From: Geodermatophilus telluris
Lineage (GTDB): Bacteria > Actinomycetota > Actinomycetes > Mycobacteriales > Geodermatophilaceae
Length of the DNA: 64,000 nucleotides
Assembly (NCBI RefSeq): GCF_900102745.1
Contig: NZ_FMZF01000006.1
Coordinates: 1-64,000, forward strand
Direction of reading: 5' to 3'
In this document: positions 46,057 through 63,759 of the stretch, in pieces
Layout of the letters: each line of letters begins with the position of its first letter
Numbering within the stretch: position 1 is the first letter of the stretch
Program-made: the position numbers and the translations under genes
The notes under the pieces: model-generated
The model's input: the letters and a program-made list of their open reading frames with translations, nothing else
Database searches by the model: none
Told to the model about the DNA's origin: nothing

Positions 46057-46187
<131 letters not shown>

Positions 46188-46380
46188 GGCTTGTCGGGAC
46201 GGTGTGACCACCATCCTGGTCACCGTCAGCCGACCCTGAGCTGGCCACGACGGACTGCGGCGGGCGCCGCGTCGAGGCCCGCGGCGGCTCCGTGTGGCCG
46301 GTCCGGCGGTGACGGAGAGATGGGCCGCTCGGTGTCGTAGCGCGGTGGGCTACCGGTCGAAGGCGTCGCCGCTTCGCGCG

Positions 46381-47967
46381 TCAGCGCCTCGCCAGGTCGT
46401 CCAGCACGTCCGCCAGCATGTCGGTCGAGGCGGTGACCCCCGTCTCGGCTCGGCCCAAGCCGTTGAGGACGACGAAGCGGACCCCGTGCCGGTACTTCTT
46501 GTCCCGCAGCCACGCACGTTGCATGGCTTCCAGGTCGAAGTGCCCCGAGGTCGGCAGGCCCAGCCTGGACAGGAGGTGCCGGTGCCGGTCGACCACGTCG
46601 TCGCCAACGCGTCCCTGGCGGCGGGCGAGATGGGCGGCGGCCATCATGCCCAGCGACACCGACTGACCCTGGTCCTCCTGTTGCCCTGTCACCAGATCCA
46701 TCGCGTGACCGAAGGTGTGGCCGTAGTTGAGGACGATCCGCTCCGCCGTCGCGCGCTCGTCCCGACTGACGATGTCGGCCTTGATCTCGACACTGCGGCT
46801 GACGAGCTGGTGCACAGCGTCGACGTCGGCTGAACAGGCGCCTTCGGATGATTCTTCGAGAACGTGGAGCAGGTCGCTCCGGCTGATCAGCGCGTGTTTG
46901 GCGATCTCGGACAATCCGGCTCGGAAGCCACGCTCCACGTTGGCACATGCGGTGGTGACGTCGGCGATGACGACCGTGGGTTGGTGGATCGTCCCCATGA
47001 GATTGCGCCCCTGGGGCATGTTGATCGCGTTCTTGCCACCGATGGCGGAATCGGCCTGGGCGACGAGCGTGGTGGGCACCAGGGCCAGTCGGGTGCCTCT
47101 GTTGAAGGTGGCGGCGACGAATCCGGCGAGGTCGCAGACCGGCTCCCCGCCCACAGCCACGACCAGGTCGTTCGTGTGCAGCGCGACGTCGGCCAACTGA
47201 TCGGCGACATACCCGACCGCGGCGAGATCCTTGTCCGCCTCCGTGTCCGGAACCGGCACTCGTGTGACCGAGATGCCCTGGGCGGTGACGCTTGCGGCCA
47301 CGCGGTCGGCCGTGCTCGTGTCCCGATCGGATTCCACGATGACCGCCTGCTCGATGTCCGTCGAGGTGGGCAACAAGGTGCCCGCCAGGTCGAGCAGTTG
47401 CCTGCCGACATGCGCGTAGTAGGTGCCGCCGACGGGAGTCACGAGGATGTTGGAGGTCCCCGGTGGAGTGCTGGGCAGGCGGGTGAGCTCCCTCAGGACG
47501 TCCAGGGCGACGGCGTCGGGACGGCGTCCGTTCGTGTCCACCTGTATCGCTGCGACCTCGGCATAGGCCTGCAGGCGCCTTGAGTAGGTCTGGTCGAGAT
47601 CGGCGCGCTGCAGCATGGGGCGGAACAGGTCCTGGTGGACTCTCGACAGGGCCTCGTCGTAGTCGACCCGTAGGTACACGACGGTGGTCTTGCGCAGGAT
47701 GGCTCGTGTCCGCGGATCCCCCAGGGCGCCGCCGCCGAGCGCCAGGACCGCGTCGGAGCCACGGACCAACTCGTTGATCGACCGGTGCTCGATCTCCCGG
47801 AAGTGCTCTTCTCCCTCAGCGGCGAAGACGTCGACGATGCTGCGGCCGAGTTGCTGCTCGATGTAGACGTCGCTGTCGACGAAGGGCGTGCCCAGCCGCT
47901 CGGCCAGGACGTGCCCGACCGTCGTCTTGCCCGCTCCCATGAAACCGACCAGCACGATCATCGCCAC
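46381..47967 (-). CDS. shikimate kinase fused to a divergent 3-dehydroquinate-synthase-like sugar phosphate cyclase
   Basis: 528 residues from ATG 47967. Residues ~1-165 are a complete shikimate kinase: Walker A 'LVGFMGAGKTTVGHVLAERL', shikimate-binding 'FVDSDVYIEQQLG', 'EEHFREIEHRS', 'LALGGGAL', lid 'LFRPML'. Residues ~172-528 are AroB-like: 'LVPTTLVAQADSAIGGKNA', 'GRNLMGTIHQPTVVIADV', E354 and K357 (GLSEIAKHA), R410-N414-H417 (RIVLNYGHTFGHA), D489-K490-K491. Differences from true DHQ synthase: GGGV(I/V)GD is GGEPVCD, GGKT is GGKN, and the metal ligand in HGE is Gln (Q433-G-Q). Q433 is 16 residues after H417, exactly the fungal H271-H287 spacing. It is either an altered DHQ synthase or a different sugar phosphate cyclase. 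It is alone in its transcript and is separated from LysR by a hairpin. Confidence 0.88.
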   Translation of the reverse strand: MAMIVLVGFMGAGKTTVGHVLAERLGTPFVDSDVYIEQQLGRSIVDVFAAEGEEHFREIEHRSINELVRGSDAVLALGGGALGDPRTRAILRKTTVVYLRVDYDEALSRVHQDLFRPMLQRADLDQTYSRRLQAYAEVAAIQVDTNGRRPDAVALDVLRELTRLPSTPPGTSNILVTPVGGTYYAHVGRQLLDLAGTLLPTSTDIEQAVIVESDRDTSTADRVAASVTAQGISVTRVPVPDTEADKDLAAVGYVADQLADVALHTNDLVVAVGGEPVCDLAGFVAATFNRGTRLALVPTTLVAQADSAIGGKNAINMPQGRNLMGTIHQPTVVIADVTTACANVERGFRAGLSEIAKHALISRSDLLHVLEESSEGACSADVDAVHQLVSRSVEIKADIVSRDERATAERIVLNYGHTFGHAMDLVTGQQEDQGQSVSLGMMAAAHLARRQGRVGDDVVDRHRHLLSRLGLPTSGHFDLEAMQRAWLRDKKYRHGVRFVVLNGLGRAETGVTASTDMLADVLDDLARR

Positions 47968-48176: not shown

Positions 48177-49103
48177 TCAGTCCTCGCGCTGGGACTCGGC
48201 ATCCGGTCGAGTCTGGGACTCGGCATCCAGTCGAGTTCTGGACGCCCTGACCACGCCGATCACCAGCGCGACGACGTCGCGGGCGTCGTTGCGCCGGACC
48301 ACCCAGGTGTTCATGGGCTGACCGAGGTCCTGGACCGGACGCCACGCCCAGTCGGGCAACTGTCGCACCGCGGTGTGCGAGCTCACCAGCACCGCGTCGG
48401 CCTCCGCGGCCTCGGCGCAGGCCCGCGAGTGCTCGACGAACCGGGCGAAGATCCACACCGGGCTGATGCCGGACGAACTCGCGGCGGCCAGTATCCCGTC
48501 CTGTTGGGTGGGGATCTGGTCGCGGGAGTGGACCAGGACCCGCAGCTGGTCGAGGTCGGCGAGCCGGTAGGAGGCGGCGCTGGCGAGCGGGTGGTCCGGG
48601 CGCACGGCAACACCCAGTGGGTCGCTCGCGAGCAGGGCGGACCAGGTGTCAGCCGGCGGGAGCTGATGGACCACGGCCACGTCCAAGCGCCCCTGGGTGA
48701 GCAGTCGTAGTTGCTCGGCGCTCCCGGCCTCGACGAATCGCACATCAGCGCCGGGAACGTGGCGCAGCAGTCCGCGCGCGACCTCGGACGTCCACTCGGT
48801 CGACAGACCGGGGGGTAGACCGATCTGGACGAGCTCGCGCGGCGGCGTCTCGGCCCGCACCACCTCCCCGATCGAATCTGCCATGGCCACCACCTGCCGA
48901 GCGTGAGCGACGAACACCCGCCCGGCCGCGGTGACCGTGGCCCCGCTCGCTCCGCGAACGAACAGTTCTTCGCCCAGCTCCTTCTCGACGTCACGGACCT
49001 GACGGCTGAGCGAGGGCTGGGCGATCAGCAACGCCTCCGCTGCCCTGCCGAAGGACCCGTGACGGGCGACGGCCAGGACGTAGCGCATGTGGCGGAGCTC
49101 CAC
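48177..49103 (-). CDS. LysR family transcriptional regulator
   Basis: 308 residues from GTG 49103, giving 'VELRHMRYVLAVARHGSFGR', the standard LysR start. HTH 'AAEALLIAQPSLSRQVRDVE', then 'LGEELFVRGASGATVTAAGR'. The effector domain follows ('QIGLPPGLSTEWTSEVARGL', 'RLDVAVVHQLPP'). The extreme C-terminus is two copies of a T-R-x-D-A-E-S-Q unit encoded by a 24-bp tandem duplication (48191-48238). It diverges from the TIM-barrel gene across a LysR-type box, so that operon is the likely target, with an aromatic or cyclic acid as inducer. Confidence 0.9.
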   Translation of the reverse strand: MELRHMRYVLAVARHGSFGRAAEALLIAQPSLSRQVRDVEKELGEELFVRGASGATVTAAGRVFVAHARQVVAMADSIGEVVRAETPPRELVQIGLPPGLSTEWTSEVARGLLRHVPGADVRFVEAGSAEQLRLLTQGRLDVAVVHQLPPADTWSALLASDPLGVAVRPDHPLASAASYRLADLDQLRVLVHSRDQIPTQQDGILAAASSSGISPVWIFARFVEHSRACAEAAEADAVLVSSHTAVRQLPDWAWRPVQDLGQPMNTWVVRRNDARDVVALVIGVVRASRTRLDAESQTRPDAESQRED

Positions 49104-49205: not shown

Positions 49206-50066
49206 GTGGCTGACAACGACGGTGACGTGACCGTGAACCCTCTGGGCGTGTGCTCGATCATGCTCTTCGGGCACACCCCGGAGGAAGCGATCGAGACGGT
49301 CCTGCGCTCGGGTGCGACCGGGATCGAGTGGCGGGTCGACGATCGTGGGCCGGGTGCAGGGTCCGACGTCTTCACCGACAACCGGTGCACCCTGCGTTTC
49401 GAGGACGTCGCCAGAACCGTGGAACGGTGTCGCCGGGCCGGACTCGAGGTCGTCGGCCTGGACACCTATGTCGACACCGGCGACGTGGCGACTGCTCGTC
49501 GCGCAGCCGCCGCCGCGGCTGAGGCCGGCGTCGGCTGGTTCCGTTTCCGGGCGCCGTGGCGCGATGGGACGGCGTGGTCGGAGCAGGCGCAGGCCGCCCG
49601 TCGGTTCGTCGACGAGCTGGAGAGGATCACCTCGCGACACGGAGTGCGGGCGCTGCTCGAGCTGCACCAGCGCTCGATCTGCCCGAGCGCTTCGCTGACC
49701 GCCCGGATCCTCGACGGGGCTGACCCCGCTCTGATCGGTGCGATCTACGACGCCGGGAACCTGCTGGTGGAGGGGTACGAGGACCACGACACCGCGATCG
49801 AGCTCCTGGGCGCCCACCTGGCACACGTACACGTCAAGAACGCCCGTTACGTTCCCTCCGAGCCCGGCATCCCCTGGGTCTTGCAGTGGTCTCCGATGGA
49901 CGACGGCCTGCTCGACGTCGTCGCCCTGCGCCGGGCACTGCACCGCGGCGGCTACCGAGGCTGGCTCTCGCTCGAGGACTTCACTGCCGACCTCGCTCCG
50001 GTCGAGGCGCTGCGTCGAGGACTCGAGGTCCTGGACCGGGCCGAGCCCGCGATGGTGACGGCATGA
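49206..50066 (+). CDS. xylose-isomerase-like TIM-barrel protein (sugar isomerase/epimerase or dehydroshikimate-dehydratase type)
   Basis: 286 residues from GTG 49206; GTGs at 49227 and 49233 are alternatives. An AP-endonuclease-2 fold with metal residues: Glu in 'VRALLELHQRSICPSA', Asp in 'IGAIYDAGNLLVEGYED', His in 'HLAHVHVKNARYVP' and Glu in 'RGWLSLEDFTADL'. Such barrels include hydroxypyruvate isomerases, tagatose epimerases, inosose dehydratases and 3-dehydroshikimate dehydratases. Neighbourhood (LysR, SDR, MFS, kinase-cyclase) favours a cyclitol or shikimate-type substrate, but this is inference. It overlaps the SDR by four bases. Confidence 0.8.
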   Translation: MADNDGDVTVNPLGVCSIMLFGHTPEEAIETVLRSGATGIEWRVDDRGPGAGSDVFTDNRCTLRFEDVARTVERCRRAGLEVVGLDTYVDTGDVATARRAAAAAAEAGVGWFRFRAPWRDGTAWSEQAQAARRFVDELERITSRHGVRALLELHQRSICPSASLTARILDGADPALIGAIYDAGNLLVEGYEDHDTAIELLGAHLAHVHVKNARYVPSEPGIPWVLQWSPMDDGLLDVVALRRALHRGGYRGWLSLEDFTADLAPVEALRRGLEVLDRAEPAMVTA

Positions 50067-50812
50067 GGGCCGAGCGGGTCGCCGTGGTCACCGGCGGCGC
50101 CGGCGGGCTCGGCGCGGCCATCGGGGCCCACCTGAGCGCGTCGGCCGACGTGGTGCTGCTGGCCGACCGCGACCTCGACGGCGCCCGCACGCAGGCCGAC
50201 CGCATCGACCGTGCACAGGCTCACGAGCTCGACGTGGCCGACGACGCCTCGGTCGAGGCGTTCGTCAACGACGTGGGTGAGCGGTTCGGCCGCATCGACG
50301 TCGTGGTCAACAACGCCGCGGTCACCGCGCCTCGCGAGCTGGACTCCTTGCAGCGGGAGGCCTGGGAGCGCGTGATGGCGGTCAACGTCTGGGGACCGAC
50401 CGCGTTGTGTCGGGCCGCCGCGGGCCTGTGGCGTAGCACCGGCACCGGTGGGCGGGTCGTCAACATCACCTCGCGTACCTGGCTCTCCGGGGGGCCGGTG
50501 GCCTACGTGACGTCCAAGGCGGCGGTCGTGGGGCTGACCCGCTCGCTGGCCCTGGAGTTCGCGCCGCTGGGCGTGACCGTCAACGCGGTCGCTCCGAGCA
50601 TGGTCGCCACACCGTTCACCCGGACTGGACGCACCGAAGCCGAGTACGCGGCCTTCGAGGCCAAGCACCTGGCGATGACCCCGATGGGGCGATTCGCCAC
50701 TCCGGACGACATCGCCGAAGCAGTCGGGTTCCTGGCCTCGCCCGGAGCCGGCTTCATCACCGGCGAGGTCCTGCACGTGTGCGGCGGCGCGCAGCTCGCG
50801 CCTTCGCCCTGA
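50063..50812 (+). CDS. short-chain dehydrogenase/reductase
   Basis: 249 residues from ATG 50063. Nucleotide loop 'VVTGGAGGLGAAIGAHLSA', 'DVVVNNAAVTAPRELDS' (NNAA rather than NNAG), catalytic Ser in 'VVNITSRTWLSGG', Tyr-Lys in 'VAYVTSKAAVVGLTRSLALE', and C-terminal 'FLASPGAGFITGEVLHVCGG'. Asp after the second strand ('LLADRDLDGA') suggests NAD preference. The substrate is unknown; the neighbours suggest a polyol or cyclitol oxidation. It overlaps the TIM-barrel gene. Confidence 0.88.
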   Translation: MRAERVAVVTGGAGGLGAAIGAHLSASADVVLLADRDLDGARTQADRIDRAQAHELDVADDASVEAFVNDVGERFGRIDVVVNNAAVTAPRELDSLQREAWERVMAVNVWGPTALCRAAAGLWRSTGTGGRVVNITSRTWLSGGPVAYVTSKAAVVGLTRSLALEFAPLGVTVNAVAPSMVATPFTRTGRTEAEYAAFEAKHLAMTPMGRFATPDDIAEAVGFLASPGAGFITGEVLHVCGGAQLAPSP

Positions 50813-50898
50813 GCAGTCCTGCTCGCGCACCAGCTCGCACCGCACTCAATCCGTGGCCGGGATGACCCGGACCCGTGGCTCTCGATGAGGAGTACCCG

Positions 50899-52176
50899 AT
50901 GACGACCGACCTGAGCCGTCCTCCTGCGGACGGCACCACCGACACCGGCCGAGCATGGATGCCCTGGGCGGTGACCGCCGCCGCCGCCGGCGCGCACGTC
51001 CTGGTGTTCTTGGACAAGGGCCTGCTCGGCCTGGTCGCCACTCCCATCCGCACCGAGTTCGGCATGTCCGCGACGACCTACGGGCTGATCAGCAGCGCGA
51101 CCTATCTCCTCACCATGGTCAGTTGCCTGGCGATCGCGCTGTCCGGGCGTCGGGTGTCGACCCGTGCGGTGCTCCTGGGCTGTGGCGCGTTGATCGCCCT
51201 CGGTCAGATCCCAGCAGCCCTGGCAGGGGGCGCCCTGATGCTCATCGCGAGCCGGGTCGTGGTCGGTACCGCCGAGGGCCCGGCCGTACCGCTGGCTCAC
51301 ACCGCCGCCTACTCCTGGTTCCCTGCCAGCCGACGAGGCCTACCCGCCGCCATCATCACCAGCGGCGCGTCGTTCTCCAAGATCGCCCTCTTGCCGGTCA
51401 TCTCCCTGCTGGTGGTCACTCTCGGCTGGCGGATCGGGTTCGTCGCCATCGGTGTCGTTGCCCTGGTGTGGCTGACCGTGTGGTACTTCCTCGGTCGGAC
51501 GGGCCCGCACGCCGGCACCGACCCGACCGCTCCGGCGCGCAGCGATCGCAGCTGGATGCGCGGGCTGCTCACCCCGACCATGCTCGCCTGCCTGTTCGCC
51601 ACCTTCGCCCAGGGCGCATTGGCCGCGGTCGTCTTCACCTGGCTGCCGTCCTACTTCCAGAACGCGCTCGGCTTCTCCGCTGCCGCCTCCGGCACGCTGT
51701 TCGCACTCCCCAGCGTCGCCGGGCTCGGTGCACTGTTCCTCATCGGCGGACTGGGCGACCGGATCATGCGCCGCGGCGCCCCTGCGCGTGTCGGCCGCGG
51801 TCGGGTCGGCGGCATCTGCCTCCTGGCGTCAGGTCTCGTGCTCGCCGCGATCCCGCTACTGGACGCCCCCGTCGTAGCGGTCGCCGCAGTCATCCTCGGC
51901 TACGGCTTCTCGGTCACGGTCAACACCGTCACCTTCCCGGTCGTGTCGGAACTGTTCGAGGCGGCCCACCGAGCCGGTGCGCTGGCCATGATCACCGTGG
52001 CGTCCGCAGCAGCCGGCGTCATCAGTCCGCTCATCGCCGGTCGTCTCATCGACACCGGGGTCGCCCCGGGGAGCGGCTACACCGCATCCTTCCTCGTCTT
52101 CGGGCTCGTGCTCGCACTCGGTGGGCTGGTCTTCGCCCTGGCGGTCGACCCCGTCCGGGACCGCGCGTCGGCCTGA
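50899..52176 (+). CDS. MFS transporter (anion/aromatic acid:H+ symporter-like)
   Basis: 425 residues from ATG 50899, ribosome site GATGAGGAG; an upstream in-frame GTG (50875) is less likely. Twelve hydrophobic segments. The first helix has 'AHVLVFLDKGLLGLVATPIR', loop 2-3 'ALSGRRVSTRAVLLGCGALI', and 'SRVVVGTAEGPAVPLAHTAA' resembles the ACS (anion:cation symporter) group, which takes up hexuronates, galactonate and phthalate-type acids. The C-terminal half has 'LFEAAHRAGALAMITVASAA'. It probably imports the substrate of the upstream enzymes. Confidence 0.85.
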   Translation: MTTDLSRPPADGTTDTGRAWMPWAVTAAAAGAHVLVFLDKGLLGLVATPIRTEFGMSATTYGLISSATYLLTMVSCLAIALSGRRVSTRAVLLGCGALIALGQIPAALAGGALMLIASRVVVGTAEGPAVPLAHTAAYSWFPASRRGLPAAIITSGASFSKIALLPVISLLVVTLGWRIGFVAIGVVALVWLTVWYFLGRTGPHAGTDPTAPARSDRSWMRGLLTPTMLACLFATFAQGALAAVVFTWLPSYFQNALGFSAAASGTLFALPSVAGLGALFLIGGLGDRIMRRGAPARVGRGRVGGICLLASGLVLAAIPLLDAPVVAVAAVILGYGFSVTVNTVTFPVVSELFEAAHRAGALAMITVASAAAGVISPLIAGRLIDTGVAPGSGYTASFLVFGLVLALGGLVFALAVDPVRDRASA

Positions 52177-52259
52177 CCCGAGCCACCTGCCCTCGACCGC
52201 CGGCGGTCTGCGATGCCCGCCGGCGGTCACCTGAGGACGACTGGAGATCGGAGCCGGCT

Positions 52260-52862
52260 GTGGAACAACTCGAGCCCGCGCTGCGCGGACACGGAGTGCG
52301 CGGGGAGCGCATCTCCACCCCGGCCGGGCCGGGGGTCGAGCTCGACGATCCGACTGTGGCCGACTCCTGGGCCGCCGCCGAGGAGCTGGACACCGCGGTG
52401 CTCATCCACCCGGAGGGCTGGGCGCTGGGGGAGCGACTGGACGCCCACAACTCGTCCCATTCGGTCGGGCACCCGACCGGGGCGGCGCTGGCGCTGTTGC
52501 GAACCGTCTTCGCCGGCCTGCTCGAGCGCCATCCGCGGCTGCGGATCCGGTCGGCGTGCGACAGCGGCTACCTCGCCGGCTACGTCATGCGCGCCGGCCA
52601 TGCATGGTCAGGCCGGCCGGACGCGCACACCACCGAGCAGCTGCCGCGGTGCACCGGGGTCGACTCGCTCGTCCACCCGCCCGGTCAGCTGCACCACCTC
52701 GTCGACGTCATGCGTCCCATCCAGGTGACGCTGGGCAGCGACCTCCCCCGCGACACGGGCGTCGAGGACCCCGTCGGTCGGCTGGAGGCCGGCCTCGACG
52801 TCGCCACCACCGACGCCATCCGCGGAGGCGCCGCCGCCGGCCTGCTCGGACTGGACAGGTGA
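52260..52862 (+). pseudogene. N-terminally truncated amidohydrolase-2 (ACMSD/decarboxylase-like) remnant
   Basis: 200 codons from GTG 52260. The C-terminal two thirds of an amidohydrolase_2 protein are recognisable: 'ELDTAVLIHPEGWALGERLD' (metal His), 'FAGLLERHPRLRIRSACDSG' followed by 'YLAGYVMRAGHAW', and 'VTLGSDLPRDTGVEDPVGRL' (metal Asp). Full family members have ~320-340 residues and begin with an H-x-H metal motif, which is absent. The second metal His, normally in a 'AHGGGYLP' stretch, reads Cys-Asp. It is therefore probably dead. It lies between the MFS gene and the galactonate cluster. Confidence 0.75.
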
Positions 52863-58828: not shown

Positions 58829-59544
58829 GGGCGCGGCGCGGACTGCACGGCACCGTCGTGGACGAGCTCGGCTCACAGATCGTCAGCGGAGCCATCCCCG
58901 AGGGCACCGTGCTGGTCCCGGACGAGCTGTGCGAGCGCTACGGCGTCTCTCGGACCGTGGTCCGTGAGACCTTGCGCGTACTCGAGGCCAAGGGGCTGCT
59001 GTCCGCCCGGCAGAACGTGGGCACGCGGGTGCACGGCAGCAGCGACTGGGACGTGCTCGACCACGACGTCATCCTCTGGCGCATCCGCAGCAGCGACTAC
59101 GCGGCCGTGACCCGGGAGCTGCTGGAGATGCGATCCGCCGTCGAACCCCATGCCGCCGGCCTGGCGGCCCGGAGGGCGGACGAGACGGGGGTCCGCGAGT
59201 TGCGCGAGGCGTACGCGGCCATGGTGGAGGCAGCCGGACGTGGCGACGTCGGGGCGTGGACGAGCGCGGACATCGTGTTTCACTCGGCTCTGTTGCGGGC
59301 GTCCGGCAACCCGATGATCGCCCAGCTCTCGAAGACGGTCGCCGCCGCGCTCGAGGCCCGCTCGGGCGAGGTGGCCGTGGAGGGCATCTCCCCGCACGCC
59401 GTCGACATGCACGGGGCTCTGGTGGACGCAGTCTCGTCGGGCGACGCGGTGGCGGCGCAGATGCGGATGGAGCAACTGCTCGGCGAGGCCGGCGACCAGA
59501 TGGCCACGCTGATGGACCGTCTGGACCGGGCCCAGACCGGATGA
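58825..59544 (+). CDS. GntR family regulator, FCD/FadR subfamily (DgoR-like)
   Basis: 239 residues from GTG 58825. Winged helix 'LHGTVVDELGSQIVSGAIPE', 'LCERYGVSRTVVRETLRVLE', 'KGLLSARQNVGTRVH'. FCD domain with acid/His metal ligands ('TSADIVFHSALLRASGNPMI', 'SPHAVDMHGALVDAV'). It resembles the galactonate regulator DgoR: 'DHDVILWRI' is the segment often seen after the HTH in this group. It would sense galactonate or a keto-deoxy acid and act on the divergent dgoD/ABC region. It overlaps its neighbours by four bases. Confidence 0.9.
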   Translation: MRARRGLHGTVVDELGSQIVSGAIPEGTVLVPDELCERYGVSRTVVRETLRVLEAKGLLSARQNVGTRVHGSSDWDVLDHDVILWRIRSSDYAAVTRELLEMRSAVEPHAAGLAARRADETGVRELREAYAAMVEAAGRGDVGAWTSADIVFHSALLRASGNPMIAQLSKTVAAALEARSGEVAVEGISPHAVDMHGALVDAVSSGDAVAAQMRMEQLLGEAGDQMATLMDRLDRAQTG

Positions 59545-60410
59545 CCCGACCCGCATCGGAGCCGGCCGGCCTGACCTGGGAGGTGGACCTGGCTCACGGC
59601 GCGCGGCTGACCGGGCTGACCGATCCCCGGGGACGGCAGTGGCTGGCCGACGACGACCGGCCCGGCCGCCGCCCCGGCGGGCCGGACGACCGCTTCACCG
59701 ACGGCCCGCTGGCCGGCTGGGACGAGATGCTGCCCAGCATCGACCCCTGCCTCCTGGACGAGGGCGGCCGGCAAGTGGCTGTCGGGGACCACGGCGACCT
59801 GTGGTGCCGGCCCTGGTCGGGCGACGTCACGGAGCACGCCGTCGACGGCGCGAGCCTGCCCTTCCGGCTGCGGCGACGGGTCACCGGAACCCCGTGCGGG
59901 ATCCGGCTCGACTACGAGCTCACCGTCACCGGGGACCGCGTGGTCCCTCTCCTCTGGGCCGCTCATCCCCAGTTCGCGCTGCGCCCCGGCACGCGGTTGG
60001 TGCTGCCCAAGCAGGTGTCGGTCCTGCGTGTCGACGGCGACGACCCCGAGTCCGGGTCGTGGGCCGCCACCGTCGACCCCGGCAGGCTCGTGACGCCGGG
60101 GGGCTGCGGCAAGTGGTACGTCGACCCGGCGGGCTCGCCCGCGCTGCACGGTGCGGCGCTGGTGGACCCCGACGGCGGCTGGCTGCGCCTGACGTGGGAC
60201 CCCGGCGACCTGCCGTACCTGGGGATCTGGCTCGACCGGGGACACCTGGCCGCCGGGGACGTGCTGGCGATCGAACCGAGCTCGGGCTTCTACGACCGGC
60301 TCGACCGTGCGGCCGCCGCGGGGAACGTGTGGACCGTGGCGCCCGGCCGGCCGCGCCGGTGGTGGGTGGCACTCGACGCAGGAGAGGACGGAGAACCGTG
60401 GCGGACCTGA
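59541..60410 (+). CDS. aldose 1-epimerase-like mutarotase
   Basis: 289 residues from ATG 59541, overlapping the GntR stop. The fold is recognisable through 'LAGWDEMLPSIDPCLLDEGG', 'LWCRPWSGDVTEHAVDG', 'LWAAHPQFALRPGTRLVLP' (substrate His) and 'LAIEPSSGFYDRLDRAAAAG' (catalytic Glu). It probably supplies the beta-anomer to the sugar dehydrogenase. It belongs to a divergent mutarotase branch also found in L-fucose and galactose clusters. It overlaps the lactonase gene by 13 bases. Confidence 0.8.
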   Translation: MTRPASEPAGLTWEVDLAHGARLTGLTDPRGRQWLADDDRPGRRPGGPDDRFTDGPLAGWDEMLPSIDPCLLDEGGRQVAVGDHGDLWCRPWSGDVTEHAVDGASLPFRLRRRVTGTPCGIRLDYELTVTGDRVVPLLWAAHPQFALRPGTRLVLPKQVSVLRVDGDDPESGSWAATVDPGRLVTPGGCGKWYVDPAGSPALHGAALVDPDGGWLRLTWDPGDLPYLGIWLDRGHLAAGDVLAIEPSSGFYDRLDRAAAAGNVWTVAPGRPRRWWVALDAGEDGEPWRT

Positions 60411-63634: not shown

Positions 63635-63733
63635 CTGGGGGTCACGGGGTCGCAGGTTCAAACCCTGTCAGCCCGACAGCGGAGAACCGCAGCTCAGGGG
63701 CCGTGTCCGGAGAGATCCGGAACGGCCCCTGAC
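63635..63733 (+). repeat. attR-type direct repeat (truncated tRNA-Pro copy)
   Basis: 99 bp from CTGGGGGTCA to GGCCCCTGAC, matching 46089-46187 with four mismatches, two inside the tRNA part. Only the anticodon-loop-to-3' portion of tRNA-Pro is present, so this is not a functional tRNA. Confidence 0.92.
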
Positions 63734-63759
63734 TGCTCTCTCGCGGCGGTTGACCACCA

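Follow-up and report, generated by a model that had tools for sequence, protein, structure and literature searches.

A rare shikimate kinase-cyclase fusion of Geodermatophilus, present in addition to canonical aroK and aroB, with replaced residues at the predicted metal and NAD sites

The fusion gene and the island that carries it

The window analysed here, a stretch of 64,000 nucleotides from Geodermatophilus telluris (genome G000), contains on its reverse strand an open reading frame without internal stop (47967-46381), which the initial annotation had read as a shikimate kinase (SK) fused to a sugar phosphate cyclase. Both domains were recovered with Pfam profiles, confirming this reading. 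The features at the locus are the following:

46057..46131, forward strand: tRNA-Pro (ggg), left edge of the island (ARAGORN)
46089..46191, forward strand: left direct repeat (3' part of tRNA-Pro and beyond), 103 nt, 95% identical to 63635-63737
46381..47967, reverse strand: SK-cyclase fusion gene, 528 aa, GTG start with an in-frame ATG as codon 3
46384..47442, reverse strand: cyclase domain similar to 3-dehydroquinate (DHQ) synthase (DHQS), about residues 176-528 (PF01761 and PF24621; TIGR01357, 277.2 bits)
47458..47967, reverse strand: shikimate kinase domain, about residues 1-170 (PF01202, 140.3 bits; 25/25 conserved positions kept)
48177..49100, reverse strand: LysR-type regulator, upstream of the fusion and on the same strand (PF00126 and PF03466)
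49212..50066, forward strand: xylose-isomerase-like TIM barrel, IolE-like (PF01261)
50066..50812, forward strand: SDR oxidoreductase (Pfam scan)
50875..52176, forward strand: MFS transporter (Pfam scan)
63635..63737, forward strand: right direct repeat, 103-nt copy of the left one

The SKI profile matched residues 10-161 of the fusion protein (PF01202 cut-off 22.1), and the profiles DHQ_synthase and DHQS_C scored 114.7 and 114.4 bits, respectively. With the AroB model TIGR01357, the score of the window fusion lies under the curated cut-off of 305, and this holds for the cyclase domains of all four carriers described below (269.6-279.2 bits). The NCBIfam model for bifunctional AroK-AroB proteins (NF010627/PRK14021, Actinomycetota fusions) has the identical domain order and aligns nearly over the full length of the fusion (residues 4-506), but the score of 278.9 bits is only half of its cut-off of 565. 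When solved structures were searched with phmmer, the closest one by sequence was a DHQS with 204.9 bits, compared to 100.3 bits for DOIS and 65.7 for the cyclase 4p53, which we take to be the EEVS ValA. By this similarity test, the fusion is not closest to sedoheptulose-7-phosphate cyclases (EEVS/DDGS) or to DOIS.

The 3' end of the tRNA gene is duplicated at the far boundary, with the two repeats 17,546 bp apart, as is characteristic of a tRNA-borne island. Given tRNA-Pro and the 103-nt repeat copies, the fusion gene is the first cargo of a 17.5-kb island, in line with the island location proposed at the outset. A Pfam scan of island genes revealed no integrase; for the ABC ATPase and permease the assignment was made by eye only, and the ORF at 59544-60407 had no Pfam match. 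Values of GC3 were 0.85-0.87 for the fusion, LysR, TIM-barrel and MFS genes and 0.91 for the SDR gene, versus 0.98 for the genome's own aroB. The TIM barrel of the window was found at E<=1e-50 in two of 108 genomes of the family, G000 itself and a second Geodermatophilus genome, G006, and the best-covered match among its plasmid relatives shows 31.6% identity.

The remainder of the island is mostly a galactose-oxidising set, with galactonate dehydratase, sugar-binding protein, the ABC ATPase and permease, SDR, GntR, SMP-30 lactonase, KDPG-type aldolase and PfkB kinase. The segment 52891-62981 is apparently an oxidative D-galactose cassette of the De Ley-Doudoroff-like type that includes an ABC transporter and a GntR regulator of its own. 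Between the MFS gene and this segment, an amidohydrolase-like ORF (52170-52862) covers positions 91-288 of the 289-position Amidohydro_2 profile and is probably a fragment. Further Geodermatophilus genomes have pieces of the 103-nt repeat at several sites around this locus (on contig 8 of G022, five such sites were listed), which suggests tandem accretion at a hot spot. The genome G006 is colinear with window positions 40003-63657 (96.8%). Between G000 and G006, dS was 0.04 for the fusion and 0.18 for the DAHP synthase gene, a contrast between two genes only that would fit a recent exchange of the island.

Copy number, distribution and neighbourhood

The housekeeping genes were searched for elsewhere in the genome of the window, and a canonical pair was found on contig 6, consisting of aroK and of an aroB with intact GGG, K and H, next to other shikimate-pathway genes as read from their translations. 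The idea that the fusion could be the sole aroB/aroK of the genome was thereby discarded. Likewise, a canonical aroB is present in all four carriers, scoring 330.1-344.5 bits and thus above the TIGR01357 cut-off, with GGG, K and H intact.

Among 112 genomes of the family, the fusion was found in four at E<=1e-75: the two Geodermatophilus genomes G000 (the window's own) and G006, and two genomes of another genus, here called g11, namely G211 (85% identity) and G358 (83%). A scan of genome contigs, which used exact query peptides and could miss members as distant as those of G211 and G358, returned Geodermatophilus tzadiensis DSM 45416 (98%) as the sole close relative. Searches beyond the family were made in samples of the order, class and phylum (397, 394 and 396 genomes, respectively), mostly with three candidates scored per genome. 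In the order sample, the next best match was 40% identical (311 bits), and in the class sample no match at E<=1e-90 came from any genome but that of the window. The fusion gene is thus a rare second copy.

The joining of the two domains is not in itself a novelty. As the initial annotation had stated, AroK-AroB fusions exist, and SK-AroB fusions are in fact common: in the order sample of 397, at least 18 genomes besides that of the window have one open frame over both halves with 37-40% identity, and further full-length open frames occur across the phylum sample. In each of these at least 18 genomes, the fusion was the single match at E<=1e-50 with three candidates scored per genome. The one in the window differs from them in being a second copy. 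A phage or plasmid origin was considered and rejected, as a scan of viral contigs with two N-terminal kinase peptides yielded no relatives, and all 157 matching plasmid records were below 60% identity, with 15 among the matches listed at 33.7-39.5%.

In a tree of 59 rows, the cyclase domains of the four carriers cluster together (100/100), apart from the main group of 45-46 DHQ-synthase rows of the order. The stem of this four-member group measures 2.2 changes per column in the 59-row tree and 2.7 in a 50-row tree that left out 11 rows (two duplicates, four divergent paralogues and five long or distant rows). In the larger tree, the four members stand in an unresolved fork with row L073 and the Bacillota rows, and because of the long branches the root and the placement of the stem are unsure. 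They are separate from the four divergent paralogues. Three of these paralogues, L070 (G028), L071 (G054) and L074 (G041), are second sugar phosphate cyclases, occurring in one member of the family and in two further genomes from the order. L071 scores 578 bits against PDB 5tpr and 251 bits against the cyclase 4p53; we assume 5tpr to be the DDGS of Anabaena, although the PDB record itself names it 3-dehydroquinate synthase. L070 and L074 group with L071, and L072, on a very long branch, does so more loosely.

The loci of the two genera were then compared. Nucleotide homology between them sets in 16 bp ahead of the start codon for G211 and 3 bp ahead of it for G358, and it breaks off about 5 bp or less from the stop codon. 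Of ten window proteins used in a tblastn search at E<=1e-8 in the 20 kb around the fusion of G211 and G358, the nine others, LysR included, gave no match; on the upstream side this coverage reaches only 3.0-3.8 kb from the fusion, to the ends of the contigs. The fusion gene thus appears to be the sole unit common to the loci of both genera, and an argument from neighbours is therefore weak. The proposal that the LysR, TIM-barrel, SDR and MFS neighbours point to the function did not hold up for this reason: since they were not found beside the fusion within 20 kb at the g11 loci (left flanks ending after 3.0-3.8 kb), they say little about its chemistry.

In both g11 genomes, a PcaD-type enol-lactonase gene (assigned with TIGR02427 in G358, and through 79% nucleotide identity in G211) is situated upstream of the fusion, which is itself oriented towards a class I PHA synthase gene. 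The latter (L059:5399-7384 and L060:4652-6541) is a divergent paralogue, 76% identical between the two g11 carriers, with best matches of 39-43% in five other g11 genomes and in two Geodermatophilus searched. Between lactonase and fusion, G211 carries a PF01261 TIM barrel and a FAD oxidoreductase above the NF009476 cut-off (L059:1069-3666), divergent from the fusion; this TIM barrel, about 1.9 kb upstream of the fusion, is too unlike that of the window to match at E 1e-8. In G358, the corresponding place is taken by a zinc-type/quinone oxidoreductase, and no TIM barrel was seen among the genes scanned at the locus. G211 has a DAHP synthase gene one gene away from the fusion, its only PF00793 match, while in G000, G006 and G358 the DAHP synthase lies on another contig than the fusion. 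Therefore, there is no neighbour link to DAHP beyond one genome. No AHBA-like gene, of the kind that accompanies an aminodehydroquinate synthase, was recognised among the neighbours scanned with Pfam.

Replaced and retained positions

The residues of the cyclase half were compared with 57 other rows, two of which are duplicates of the clade members in G211 and G358, leaving 55 other cyclases (51 DHQS-like rows and the four divergent paralogues). Four positions that are invariant in all 55 (G275E, K321R, E424D and H433Q) are changed in the four carriers:

47143..47151, reverse strand: G273-G274-E275 (GGE; GGG in other cyclases), E275 in 4/4, G in 55/55 others
47005..47007, reverse strand: R321 replacing an invariant Lys, R in 4/4, K in 55/55 others
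46696..46698, reverse strand: D424 replacing an invariant Glu (GHAIE to GHAMD or GHAID), D in 4/4
46669..46671, reverse strand: Q433 replacing the third metal-ligand His, Q in 4/4, H in 55/55 others

Position 424 is Glu in all 51 DHQS-like rows and in the four divergent paralogues. The residues singled out in the initial annotation (E354, K357, R410, N414, H417, D489-K490-K491, and the motifs GGEPVCD and GGKN) were all found at their places, and Gln in the position of the third ligand, 16 residues after H417, proved to be a property of the whole clade. This column is secure, since the adjacent G434 is invariant and Q433 lies opposite the His of the M. tuberculosis DHQS 3qbd. With respect to the motifs described as altered, GGE turned out to be strict (4/4 versus 0/55), while GGKN (T313N) is a weak signal, with 48 T and 7 V among the 55 others; K321R and E424D are two strict changes that had been overlooked. 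The E-to-Q change in HGE (Q435) was rejected as a signal, because the others have A (19), D (15), E (11), H (7), Q (2) or F (1) at this position and two of the four clade members have E. Directly before Q433, the pair E431-D432 (46672-46677) is invariant in the four members, where the aligned actinobacterial DHQS rows have Trp-Arg, and these residues are possible substitute ligands.

In the numbering of the A. nidulans enzyme, we take E194, H271 and H287 to be the metal ligands, and K161 and the GGG loop to lie near NAD. Compared with this arrangement, the fusion keeps two of three metal ligands (E354 and H417), the third being Q433 in all four members. These replacements would alter the metal and NAD contacts of the cyclase half. 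By contrast with these changes, all four members agree with the reference rows at 33 of the 37 cyclase columns that are fully invariant, including K312, N322, E354, K396, R410, N414, H417, H421 and K491, and K357 is also retained in 4/4. The DAHP-type substrate residues checked are all present in each of them (K312, N322, K357, K396, R410, N414, H421 and K491), presumably corresponding to K152, N162, K197, K250, R264, N268, H275 and K356 of A. nidulans. Accordingly, His421 of the fusion would be the counterpart of His275.

When all conserved columns were considered, 13 of 70 were altered in all four members. In a leave-one-out test, the median of the 51 reference rows was one change and the four members had 14-17, but three Bacillota rows had 20-25, and L075 and L073, both from the order of the window, had 22 and 10, respectively. 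The whole set of changed columns was thus discarded as evidence of neofunctionalisation: since the Bacillota rows and L075 are equally or more changed, only the four strictly invariant positions were used as a signal.

The kinase half behaved differently. All 25 columns conserved among 53 other SK domains are kept in the four members, presumably representing the P-loop, the shikimate-site Asp/Arg, GGG and the lid Arg, so that the kinase motifs are complete as first described, and this half would carry out ordinary shikimate phosphorylation. The difference in changed conserved columns between kinase (0/25) and cyclase (13/70) gave p 0.018 in Fisher's test, where the cyclase figure is inflated by ordinary sequence distance. 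Whole-gene dN/dS (Nei-Gojobori) was 0.16-0.21 in all six pairs of the four carriers. By halves, the five pairs excluding G000-G006 gave 0.13-0.17 for the kinase and 0.16-0.23 for the cyclase, and in the pair G000-G006 kinase residues 1-170 showed no amino-acid difference and the cyclase a dN/dS of 0.25. With the frame open in four genomes and dN/dS of 0.16-0.21, a pseudogene could be dismissed. As substrate and kinase positions are kept at these values, the change has been fixed in a selected gene and is not decay.

Possible functions of the cyclase half

Our best explanation, to which we give close to an even chance, is that the fusion is an accessory second AroK-AroB whose cyclase half binds DAHP and is still DHQS-like, with a remodelled metal and NAD site. 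On mobile-looking DNA in the genus of the window, it would be an accessory bifunctional shikimate-pathway enzyme. Its cyclase half would bind DAHP and retain the oxidation, phosphate elimination and cyclisation of a DHQS, with a metal that is weakened, different or missing owing to Gln in place of His, and with a changed NAD pyrophosphate loop. This would add one more enzyme for pathway steps 2 and 5, less zinc-dependent or differently regulated than the housekeeping pair. This explanation is supported by the canonical aroB in 4/4 carriers together with the score of the fusion under the TIGR01357 cut-off in 4/4, by the conservation of 33/37 invariant cyclase and 25/25 kinase columns at low dN/dS, and by precedents in metal-free maleylacetate reductases and in the metal breadth of M. 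tuberculosis DHQS (PMC5125639, PMC7144000). The more specific proposal that the cyclase works without a catalytic metal or with a non-canonical one and with a re-shaped NAD loop, either in a metal-independent cyclisation of DAHP or in another reaction of a DAHP-like acid, next to the normal SK to which it is fused, seems to us rather unlikely.

Among known enzymes, AroB (TIGR01357; 3qbd of M. tuberculosis and 1dqs of A. nidulans) shares with the fusion the Pfam domains, the DAHP-type substrate residues and two of the three metal ligands, but the fusion has Gln as third ligand, GGE for GGG, K321R and E424D, and falls below the cut-off in 4/4. The other SK-AroB fusions that were read keep G275, K321, E424 and H433, all of which are replaced in that of the window. 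A natural, conserved lineage that lost a metal ligand is also described for the maleylacetate reductases of the DHQ-FeADH superfamily, which are active without metal after Asp242 was replaced by Asn or Arg; subfamilies in which Gln stands at the place of this Asp are presumed to be metal-free as well (PMC5125639). These reductases belong to a different family of the superfamily, lost Asp242 rather than the third His and do not catalyse a cyclisation. EDTA inactivates M. tuberculosis DHQS and several divalent metals restore its activity, and His275 of A. nidulans DHQS has a role in proton transfer (PMC7144000). Our incomplete survey of the literature on AroKB, sugar phosphate cyclase residues and Gln ligands found neither this protein nor a DHQS with a substitution of the H433Q type.

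A combined change of metal site and NAD loop is also expected of a dead cyclase, which counts against the best explanation, as does the restriction of the neighbour link to DAHP to G211. We therefore weighed whether the cyclase half could be non-catalytic and bind DAHP, DHQ or another pathway ligand in a regulatory or scaffolding role beside an active second SK, which is unlikely in our judgement. The replacement of a metal ligand, an NAD-loop Gly and an invariant Lys in 4/4, next to a kinase left untouched, is what this alternative would predict. However, the contrast between 0/25 and 13/70 (p 0.018) is inflated by distance, as the 20-25 changes of the Bacillota rows and the 22 of L075 indicate, and the substrate residues and two metal ligands stay under purifying selection, while a scaffold need not keep them.

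The initial annotation had left the choice between a new cyclase chemistry and a DHQ synthase with altered metal binding. Within the scope of these tests, neither outcome that it had named as contradicting it came about: the genome has another aroB, and although close homologues carry Gln, none of them has a known activity. The part concerning altered metal and NAD-loop residues stood, and the fusions do form a long-stemmed group of their own, but DAHP-type substrate residues and similarity to DHQS speak against a new substrate. A reaction with another sugar phosphate, or only part of the DHQS sequence, serving a specialised pathway perhaps together with island genes, is in our opinion improbable. 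The stem of 2.2-2.7 changes per column and the four strict residue changes argue for it, and so do the IolE-like TIM barrel, the SDR and the transporter that adjoin the fusion in the window with similarly low GC3 (0.85-0.91 versus 0.98), and the presence in G211 of another PF01261 TIM barrel with a FAD oxidoreductase just upstream. EboD illustrates that a new cyclase may go unrecognised among AroB-like proteins (PMC5133447). Nevertheless, the substrate residues are those of DAHP cyclases, DOIS and 4p53 score far lower than DHQS, the neighbours of the window were not found in the 20 kb searched at the g11 loci and the genes scanned in G358 included no TIM barrel. In addition, the fused intact shikimate kinase points to shikimate metabolism.

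Finally, plain redundancy, with an ordinary zinc DHQ synthase in which Gln, a residue that can ligate metals, replaces the His ligand with little effect, would agree with the high overall similarity to DHQS but is very improbable, given His in 55/55 other cyclases including the four divergent paralogues (L071 being closest to 5tpr), the three other invariant residues changed alongside H433Q, and the canonical aroB that the carriers already have.

His is the third metal ligand in every one of the 55 other cyclases compared, and a natural variant kept by selection offers a test of what the metal contributes. The case also illustrates that an aroB annotation based on similarity can hide a different paralogue. 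Should the accessory AroK-AroB that we favour form DHQ, its metal requirement would be unusual for a DHQ synthase; if it does not, its cyclase half would be a new cyclase or a regulatory domain.
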